Assembly: GCA_014360335.1 (NCBI GenBank)
Contig: JACIXS010000348.1
Coordinates: 1 to 40,292, forward strand
Reading direction: 5' to 3'
Length of the DNA: 40,292 nt
Origin: a bacterium
GTDB lineage: Bacteria; DUMJ01
Shown here: piece after piece, positions 28,176 to 31,260 of the stretch
How positions within the stretch are numbered: the first letter of the stretch is position 1
Layout: the number at the start of each line of letters is the position of its first letter
Program-made: the position numbers and the translations under genes
The notes under the pieces: generated by a model
What the model was told of the DNA's origin: nothing
The model's database searches: none
What the model saw: the letters and a program-made list of their open reading frames with translations, nothing else

Positions 28176-29141
28176 TCATTTAATTTTATTATTCAAGCTT
28201 CTCTTTCGCTCATATAAAGAATTATCAGCAATAGCAAGTATCCTATCTAAAGAATTGCCATCTCTAGGAAAGATAGCTAAGCCAAAAGAGACATCTACGT
28301 CTTTTAAACGCTTCTTTAGTTTATCTTTAATTCTCTCGTAGAGAAATTCTACATTCGTTAACTCTCCGGGTAAAATTATAACAAATTCATCTCCTCCATA
28401 CCTAAAGCTTATATCTGTAGACCTAACAGAACTTCTTAGTATACCTGCAAATTCTCTAAGGGCTATATCTCCTGCCTGATGCCCATAGGTATCGTTGTAT
28501 CTTTTAAATCCATCTAGGTCACACATTACTAACGTAAAAGGAACTCTTCTTGAAATCATGGTATCCGCACATTTTTCAAGTGCTCTCCTATTATAAAGCC
28601 CTGTAAGTGGATCTATATGAGCCTTTTTCTCCATATCTATAGCGTAAGAAAGTAGTGACCCCTGTGTCTTCACTAATATCCTCGATAACCAGTACATAAG
28701 AACTATTATGCTACTTATATACGCTATACCAAAGGCGTCCCCAATAACAGCAGAATATATCTCTAGAGCAACTAAAAAGAATGTATCTATAATTGCTATC
28801 CTTAAAGCCCAAGTGGGTTCTCTCTCTATCCCATGAGATACAACAGGGAGAAAAAATAAAAACATAAACGGGCTTCTCTGAATGCCTGTATTGAGAACTA
28901 CCGAGATATTTAGTAATAGTGAAGATATTACTGGTATCCACGGAGATTTAAATTCTAATATATGAACCAACAGAAAAATGGCTCCCAAAAGAATAGGAAC
29001 ATAAAAATACCTAGTATCTTTTGCCAGTAGGACATAAGCTACTGCGAAGAAGATTGCAGTAGCTATCCTCATATTACGAACCTCTCTTCTTATCTCCCTA
29101 TATATGTCTAAGTCTTCTCCTCTATACTTAAGAGGTTCCAT
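28176..29141 (-). CDS. Membrane GGDEF diguanylate cyclase
   Basis: 321 residues. Five or six hydrophobic segments occupy about residues 24-157, followed by a short linker and a GGDEF domain starting at DPLTGLYNRRALEK (177-190). The active-site motif is intact, GGDEF at 249-253, and an RxxD inhibitory site (Arg240-Asp243) lies exactly five residues before it, so an active, product-inhibited c-di-GMP synthase is expected. The N-terminal membrane part has no recognisable ligand-binding domain. It has its own promoter (29175-29203) but no strong Shine-Dalgarno before the ATG. No terminator is visible between it and the argG promoter. Confidence 0.9.
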   Translation of the reverse strand: MEPLKYRGEDLDIYREIRREVRNMRIATAIFFAVAYVLLAKDTRYFYVPILLGAIFLLVHILEFKSPWIPVISSLLLNISVVLNTGIQRSPFMFLFFLPVVSHGIEREPTWALRIAIIDTFFLVALEIYSAVIGDAFGIAYISSIIVLMYWLSRILVKTQGSLLSYAIDMEKKAHIDPLTGLYNRRALEKCADTMISRRVPFTLVMCDLDGFKRYNDTYGHQAGDIALREFAGILRSSVRSTDISFRYGGDEFVIILPGELTNVEFLYERIKDKLKKRLKDVDVSFGLAIFPRDGNSLDRILAIADNSLYERKRSLNNKIK

Positions 29142-29174
29142 GGATTATTCTTATCTTGTCGTCGTTAAGTTATT

Positions 29175-29203
29175 ATTATAAATAATATCACACATTCTGA
29201 AAA
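29175..29203 (-). promoter_or_regulatory. Promoter of the GGDEF gene
   Basis: Minus-strand TTTTCA (29203-29198), a 17-nt spacer and TATAAT (29180-29175) lie about 35 nt upstream of the ATG at 29141. The promoter sits just beyond the 94-bp inverted-repeat element. Confidence 0.55.
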
Positions 29204-29221
29204 ATAAAAGGAGAATTAAGC

Positions 29222-29315
29222 CTGATCCGTAATCAAAATTAACCTACTGGAAGCTTTTGGTAAGATAATGCTTACCGTGTTTTTGTTAAATTCATATGAA
29301 ATGATTACAGATCAG
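29222..29315. repeat. 94-bp element with 14-bp inverted ends (MITE-like or structured RNA)
   Basis: CTGATCCGTAATCA at 29222-29235 and TGATTACAGATCAG at 29302-29315 are inverted copies with 13 of 14 matching. Between them sit a central hairpin, GGTAAG (29259-29264) with CTTACC (29271-29276), and a perfect 10-bp palindrome TTCATATGAA at 29291-29300. The right end of the element is exactly where the ArsR-like reading frame stops making sense. No target-site duplication is visible. It may be a miniature transposable element remnant, or a hairpin acting as terminator or operator pair. Confidence 0.5.
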
Positions 29316-29502
29316 CTATAGCGGTAGTAGATTGTGGCATACCTAACTCTTTAGCTATCTCACTCACATTAAGTCTTTTGTCTTTAAGGAGAGAAAGGAT
29401 TCTTATCCTTCTCTCAGACGCTAAGGCTTTAAGGACCTTTATACTATCTTTATCCTCTATACTAACAACTAATATTCCATCCTTGTTATTCTTATTAATC
29501 AT
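29305..29502 (-). pseudogene. Truncated ArsR-like winged-helix regulator
   Basis: 65 residues: SIKVLKALASERRIRILSLL followed by VSEIAKELGMPQSTTAI, the N-terminal half of a winged-helix HTH domain like those of ArsR-type regulators. The recognition helix breaks off after QSTTAI, where homologues would continue with the rest of the helix and the wing. Here the frame reads ADL and stops within the end of the 94-bp inverted-repeat element. The missing part is not found in any frame on the other side of that element, so insertion plus deletion is likely. The start follows the chemoreceptor stop by 18 nt, with only AAAGGAT close to the ATG. I infer a non-functional remnant. Confidence 0.65.
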
Positions 29503-29520
29503 ATCCTTTATTATATCATA

Positions 29521-31260
29521 TTAAAGGATGAATCCTTTATTTATATCTTCCAACTCCTTCGACACCTCTACTAATCTCTTTAGATTTGAGGTTATATCCT
29601 CCATAGTAGCTGTTACTTCCTCTACCGCTGCCGAGACCTCCTCAGAAGATGCTGCATTTTCCTGCGCTATAGCGGCGACACTCTGGATAGCATCTGATAT
29701 CTTTTTACCATCCTCTACTAGGCTAATTATTCCTGAATTTATCTCTTGAATCATCTCGCTTATCCTAGTATTAGCTTGAGAAATACTATTGAATGTCTCC
29801 GTCACATTGGAGCCGATCTCAACTTGTGTAGATATAGTCTTTACCGCGTCGTCTGTACTCTGTGCTGCTAGTGTTATTCTATTCCTAATCTCGTCTATAA
29901 ACTGGGAAATCCTCTGTGCACTTTGATTAGATTCTTCCGCCAATTTTCTCACTTCATCAGCCACTACTGCAAAACCACGTCCAGCTTCACCAGCCCTTGC
30001 TGCTTCTATCGCTGCATTTAACGCTAAAAGATTGGTCTGAGAGCTTATACTCACTATTGTCTCTACAATACGACCTATCTCTCCTGCGGTCCTTTCAAGT
30101 TCATTCATAACAGTAACGATAGAGTTAGTTGCTTCTGTAGTCTTTGAGAATCCTCTATTAAGCTCGTCAACTACCCTTTCTCCCTGATTTGTAAGAGCTA
30201 AAGCCTCTTGAGTTGTCTTTTCAACCATTCCTGCTCTCTGCGATAGCTCTTCTATCTTCCTACTCATAACCTCTATAGCACTAGAGGCTGAAGTTACACT
30301 ATTCGCAGTCTCTTGGGCTCCGCTAGCGACACCTTGAATAGTAGTTGCTATCTGCTGTATTGCCATAGAGGATTGTCCAATATTACTATCTATGGAACTA
30401 GCAAGGTTGTCTAGTGTCTCTGAAGATATCTTTGCCTTCGATATGATAGACCTTAGATTCTCTAACATTGTATTTATCTCTTTACTTAACTCTCCAAGTT
30501 CATCGTTAGAGATAATGTCTATACTCTTTATACTCAGATTGCCTTTAGCGATGCTAGTTACTACCTCGAGTAGTCTATTTATTGAGCCTTTTATACCTCT
30601 TGTTATTAATAGTCCTATAACTAGCGTCAAAGCCAATGCTATGCCAAATATAATTATAAGTATTATTGACTGGCTCCTCAGATATCTTGCCTGCATAGTT
30701 GACCATTCTTCTGCTCCCTTGTCTATAAGCTCTCCTATTACATTCAAATCTTCTCTAGCAATGTCAAACTCTTCCTGCCATTTTTTGAGTGTGTCTTTTG
30801 ATATACTCCTTCCTGCCTTTACATCTTCAACGATAGAATCTGATGTTTGTTTCCAGGTATTTATATGGCCTTGAGAGATAGAATAGATATCAAATATACT
30901 CTTACCGGAAGAGTCTCTATAGATATCCCATCGCGCTCTATCTTCCCCCATCCTTTTTATCGCTTCAGATGTCCTATCTAATACCTGCGATAAGTTACTG
31001 TTATAGTCATCTAATAGTTTATTGCTCGGATTATTTGTATATATTATCTCTTGAAGGGCGGTAAGTGCCTGGTAGAAATCTCTATCCGCATTTAAGACTA
31101 GAGAGATACTGCTATAAGCCTCTTCATAGAGTGCATCTATAATAGTAGATGTTGAAGTACTAAAGGTAACATAAGAAAAGATACCAACTACTAGTATCCC
31201 TATCATAGGAATAGCTAGATTTAATAATAACTTAGCACCGATAGACATTTTTCTTAGCAT
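29521..31260 (-). CDS. Methyl-accepting chemotaxis protein
   Basis: 579 residues with the classical receptor layout: membrane helix at 12-33, extracytoplasmic helical sensor about 34-196 (four-helix-bundle-like, no PAS/Cache motif seen), membrane helix at 198-220, HAMP about 221-273, and the cytoplasmic signalling coiled coil to the end. The CheA/CheW-binding hairpin is intact at 407-442 ([20 protein letters not shown] followed by [15 protein letters not shown]). Glu/Gln-rich methylation helices flank it. There is no C-terminal CheR-tethering pentapeptide. It is transcribed from an extended -10 promoter with a GGAGGGG ribosome site. The ligand is unknown. Confidence 0.95.

Follow-up and report, generated by a model that had tools for sequence, protein, structure and literature searches.

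Non-autonomous derivatives of insertion sequences (IS) include the MITEs, MIC231 among them. The IS4 family, as delimited in a family-wide survey ('IS4 family goes genomic', 2008; PMC2266710), has as its signature the spacing Y(2)R(3)E(6)K together with target repeats of about 10 bp. The locus described here is a 94-bp element at positions 29222–29315 of the window, by which we mean the whole 40,292-nt stretch of DNA that was analysed. It has 14-bp terminal inverted repeats at its edges, the arms of which are complementary, and its ends are IS ends found elsewhere in the genome. We consider this element most probably (at a probability of roughly 0.87) to be a degenerate, possibly hybrid IS4-like remnant that came from an IS-associated deletion, and an instance of ordinary genome decay. 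A structure that had looked suspicious is on this reading settled as an IS scar, and no new mechanism is involved. Like MIC231 and other MITEs, the window element consists of IS ends only and lacks a transposase gene, with no ORF of at least 40 aa found inside its 94 bp. Unlike them, it was found once, has no target duplication and gives no sign of movement.

The whole analysis is based on draft assemblies. The window's own assembly (G000) comprises 2.37 Mb in 433 contigs and is estimated to be 99.2% complete with 4.5% contamination. Two other genomes of the same genus (G001 and G002) were available for comparison, the remaining genomes searched sharing only the domain. Two related IS groups were encountered, for which the labels IS-A and IS-B were coined in this analysis.

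The main features of the element named in the original prediction were all seen. The arms at 29222–29235 and 29302–29315 pair at 13 of 14 positions (93%) and stand 66 bases apart, and reading of the sequence places a central hairpin (GGTAAG-ATAATG-CTTACC) at 29259–29276 and a 10-bp palindrome, TTCATATGAA, at 29291–29300. The inverted repeat by itself is not significant in 40 kb and is expected about once per window: one repeat pairing at 13/14 or better across a gap of 20–100 bp was observed, while over 30 sequences generated from the window by a first-order Markov model the mean was 1.3 and the maximum 5, and a search of the window for the arm pattern, allowing at most 2 mismatches, gave two matches where 1.21 would be expected. 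It is because the ends match IS ends that the element becomes significant. That a chance inverted repeat happens to lie at an unrelated deletion junction has, in our estimation, next to no probability. Such a repeat is indeed to be expected about once per 40 kb, but both ends of this one match IS ends (14/14 on one side and 88% over 41–42 bp on the other) and one of them sits at the exact breakpoint.

The right terminal repeat (29302–29315, + strand), TGATTACAGATCAG, does not differ from the right ends of IS-A, an IS present in many copies. Nine exact copies of this 14-mer occur in G000, that of the window included, against 0.03 expected from base composition. The other 8 are all IS-A right ends, each preceded by almost identical coding sequence that enters the repeat, and each lies 102–270 bp from a contig end, as expected because a repeated element breaks the assembly. 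When up to 2 mismatches were allowed in the terminal-repeat pattern, the number of matches in G000 was barely higher than in the control (26 vs 21), and therefore only the exact matches (11) carry weight. Over its right 17 bp the element matches, in addition, the left-type ends of the G001 IS copies L077 and L079 as well as a repeat that stands alone in G002 (L084), compared with 14 bp for the match to IS-A right ends. The copy that supplied the right end may thus have contributed either an IS-A right end or a left-type end, both being candidates. The TIR pattern TGRTTACNNNNCAG, less strict and covering both types of end, gave 30 matches in G000 against 3 for a reversed-pattern control, 13 against 4 in G001 and 9 against 5 in G002, with some of the matches outside tRNA-Thr genes inspected. 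Rejected as IS ends were two of the 30 matches in G000 (C2:21383 and C212:4145), two in G001 (C40 and C142) and one in G002 (C25), all of which sit within tRNA-Thr genes.

The left part of the element (29222–29263, + strand) corresponds to an IS-B-type left end, made up of the terminal repeat and the 5′ arm of a subterminal hairpin. Its first 41 bp are 87.8% identical to L048 of G002, and its match to contig C249 of G000 (L011) extends over 36 columns at 91.7% or 42 bp at 88%; overall, the left 41–42 bp are about 88% identical to the IS-B left ends at G000:C249:15582 and G002:C32. A match of 36 bp at 89% was also found at G002:C3, and one at 82% in G001. The hairpin comes after the terminal repeat in copies of IS-B, and of this hairpin the window element has the 5′ arm without the 3′ arm; no intact IS-B copy was found in the genomes examined. 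The 35-bp interior (29264–29298), which takes in the palindrome and the latter half of the small hairpin, had only chance-level matches in the fetched loci.

A hairpin was observed just inside the left terminal repeat in both IS groups (L038:1438–1545; L077:240–361, − strand; L048:1430–1541, − strand; L011:1501–1600; L094:175–290), with fold z values of −3.8 and −4.4 for those of IS-A type and −3.7, −3.4 and −1.9 for those of IS-B type. A GGAG-type motif lies in its 3′ arm, ahead of where the transposase is presumed to start, and the hairpin is placed as if it were to sequester the ribosome binding site of the transposase. At G000:C249:15582–15711 (L011) there is an IS-A right end within IS-B-like sequence, an arrangement that would fit insertion of IS-A into a remnant of IS-B. 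Shortened elements with similar terminal repeats were seen in both relatives, one of 200 bp at G002:C3:11622–11821 (L082:623–822) and one of 224 bp at G001:C95:3098–3321 (L069).

Left ends of IS-A, which start with CTGGGGTGTAATCAC or CTGGGATGTAATCAC, were obtained next to 11 different flanks. When these were compared with 9 right flanks, 4 of the 99 combinations showed a target duplication, the lengths being 10, 10, 10 and 12 bp; all four flank pairs that share at least 6 bp share at least 10, and among the other combinations none shares 6 bp or more exactly. The IS-A transposase is represented by pieces only, with no full-length copy found. A fragment from G001, comprising the C-terminal 219 aa of a related transposase, has a DDE_Tnp_1 domain (PF01609, E = 4.3e-14) and carries YRERMKIEEMFKDEK, in which Y-RE-R-MKI-E-EMFKDE-K fits Y(2)R(3)E(6)K with the spacing counted by eye; this motif is known from G001 only, the right-end fragments of G000 beginning downstream of it. 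The same fragment matched three cyanobacterial plasmid records in the plasmid collection (37–39% identity) and two loci among the genome contigs, one at 100%, apparently the G001 locus itself, and the other, on a gammaproteobacterial contig, at 35%.

With its DDE domain, YREK spacing, target duplications of about 10 bp and short terminal repeats, IS-A resembles the IS4 family as the survey outlines it (PMC2266710). The parent IS would accordingly seem to be IS4-like, and it is called no more than this, with no subgroup assigned, because the NCBIfam IS4 models match the partial protein below their cut-offs (59.9 bits vs 152 for NF033591 and 39.4 vs 115 for NF033592). In the survey, IS231 and ISH8 have ends in CAT, whereas those of IS-A and of the window element are 5′-CTG; the CT ends of IS10 agree with those of the element, the repeats of IS10 being 9 bp (PMC2266710).

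One of the explanations first put forward for the locus was that a small non-autonomous mobile element had inserted with a deletion, and a search was proposed for further copies of the 94-bp unit and its ends. When this was carried out in G000, the ends were present elsewhere but the unit was found only once; no full-length copy was found in 58 other genomes, and the element had no DNA match in the plasmid collection at E 1e-5. No exact direct repeat of at least 4 bp flanks the window element, and 2 of 10 flank positions agree. What stands of this explanation is a relic with a deletion, its ends derived from resident IS groups and the second half of the gene not found. Remnant, or scar of recombination, is a better description than mobile MITE family, for which the single unit, the lack of a target duplication and the unmatched interior are all unfavourable. 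The related proposal that a true MITE was moved in trans by an IS4-like transposase into the regulator, an unrelated later deletion then taking the rest of the gene, would suit the shortness of the element, the likeness of its terminal repeats to those of larger resident IS elements and the occurrence of other internally shortened elements in the genus (200 bp at G002:C3 and 224 bp at G001:C95). We consider it unlikely, given that the interiors of those two elements differ and that neither the copy number nor the flanks of the window element are those of a transposed MITE.

The gene that ends at the element is a 65-codon ORF (29305–29502, − strand), a truncated ArsR-type HTH regulator whose last residues and stop are read from the element itself; the TAA within the terminal repeat (CTGATCTGTAA on the − strand) is its in-frame stop. 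BLASTN homology to the full-length gene of G001 starts at 29316, placing the breakpoint at 29315/29316, exactly at the element edge, as had been claimed. The comparison with relatives that had been suggested revealed a full-length regulator of 314 aa in G001. The second half of the gene was not found, residues 64–314 being unmatched in G000 at E 0.001; a search of this genome recovered only residues 5–63, at 90% identity to the G001 relative. The 65-codon protein matches HTH_5 incompletely, at profile positions 2–32 of 47 only, compared with 2–46 of 47 for the G001 protein. Compared with a full-length regulator of this type, in which a long C-terminal domain follows the HTH part, the window copy lacks the winged-helix end and the whole C-terminal domain. 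The regulator had no match in G002 at E 0.001. Near-full-length homologues with 37–56% identity were identified in four distant genomes (G006, G053, G306 and G328) of the 336 searched; any match at E 1e-8 was limited to 8 of the 336, namely those four, G001, the window fragment and two partial C-terminal matches which lie in larger ORFs.

Over 50 codons, with the poorly aligned first 11 left out, dN was 0.044 and dS 0.38 relative to G001. These values show constraint over most of the divergence, a measure in which the periods before and after truncation are not separable. The 65-aa product is probably non-functional, the likeliest function being none, and we suggest that the ORF be annotated as a pseudogene fragment. 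That the IS scar created a functional mini-regulator, in the form of a selected 65-aa peptide acting as a stand-alone DNA-binding or dominant-negative protein, seems to us highly improbable.

The other explanation in the original prediction was a structured RNA or terminator that had evolved at this position, which would imply a naturally short regulator gene. The 94 bases do fold stably relative to shuffles (z = −4.7 and −4.9), as expected because the arms pair, with z values of −2.6 and −3.6 when about 10 flanking bases were added, and a terminator-like hairpin is present at 29258–29277 on the + strand (1 found vs a mean of 0.2 in shuffles). However, this strand is opposite to that of the genes for the regulator, the GGDEF protein and the MCP, the window gave no match to Rfam at gathering scores, no second copy was found on which covariation could be assessed, and the arms are IS ends. 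The length of the G001 gene and the full-length homologues in four more distant genomes also argue against a gene that is naturally short. A structured RNA or terminator is thus scarcely credible here. It had also been stated that a single-copy element, with relatives showing the same 65-codon gene and a conserved hairpin, would speak against an inserted element; the whole unit is single copy, but no relative with such a gene and hairpin was found.

On the other side of the element lies a GGDEF protein gene (28176–29141, − strand). One DNA match in G001 covers this gene and the adjacent one, which we take to be argG. Homology to the region upstream of the GGDEF gene in G001 stops at 29192, and a spacer of 29 bp (29193–29221) then leads to the element. 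The other boundary of the deletion may not coincide with the element, because these 29 bp lie beyond the end of the G001 homology.

Several features point to an IS-associated deletion: the edge on the side of the gene is an IS end to the base, two IS ends with slightly unlike repeats remain with almost no interior, there is no target duplication, and sequence has been lost. An IS end would have been located within the regulator gene, and a deletion starting at or inside the IS would have led to the loss of the C-terminal ~250 codons of the regulator (about four-fifths of the gene). The same deletion would have taken whatever separated the regulator from the GGDEF gene, leaving 94 bp of IS ends. 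As to the kind of recombination and the order of events, we infer that the simplest single event would be one in which the interiors of two IS copies recombined, the first of them near the GGDEF gene, with its left end of IS-B type, and the other in the regulator. Recombination of this kind would give the slightly unlike terminal repeats, the short interior, the absence of a target duplication and the lost neighbour all in one step. An alternative route, through an internally deleted element and an adjacent deletion, would take two steps; both routes are compatible with the present data. By either, the terminal repeat would by chance have provided the in-frame TAA that makes a 65-codon ORF of the remnant.

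The undeleted arrangement was seen in neither G001 nor G002, so that restored synteny in the relatives was rejected. In G001 the best matches lie on three contigs (argG–GGDEF on C112, the regulator on C146 and the MCP gene on C127), whereas the genes are adjacent in the window (28176–31260), and in G002 there was no DNA match to the argG–GGDEF part at E 1e-5 among the best 40 of 75 candidates. Because the best matches of the GGDEF, regulator and MCP genes fall on different G001 contigs, the comparison suggests that this region has undergone rearrangement in one of the two lineages. The locus further suggests that an IS4-like group has been reshaping gene content in a lineage that is sparsely sampled, with two other genomes of the genus.

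The long C-terminal part of the intact regulator (L053:1489–2433) had no convincing Pfam or NCBIfam match. Its near-full-length homologues recur within single genomes, with at least 6 matches in G053 and at least 5 in G328 among the best 6 candidates of each. Beside an IS-B remnant of G002 (L048:1–822, − strand) there is also an ORF with a long, near-perfect array of a nine-residue repeat (VTVDQLADY).
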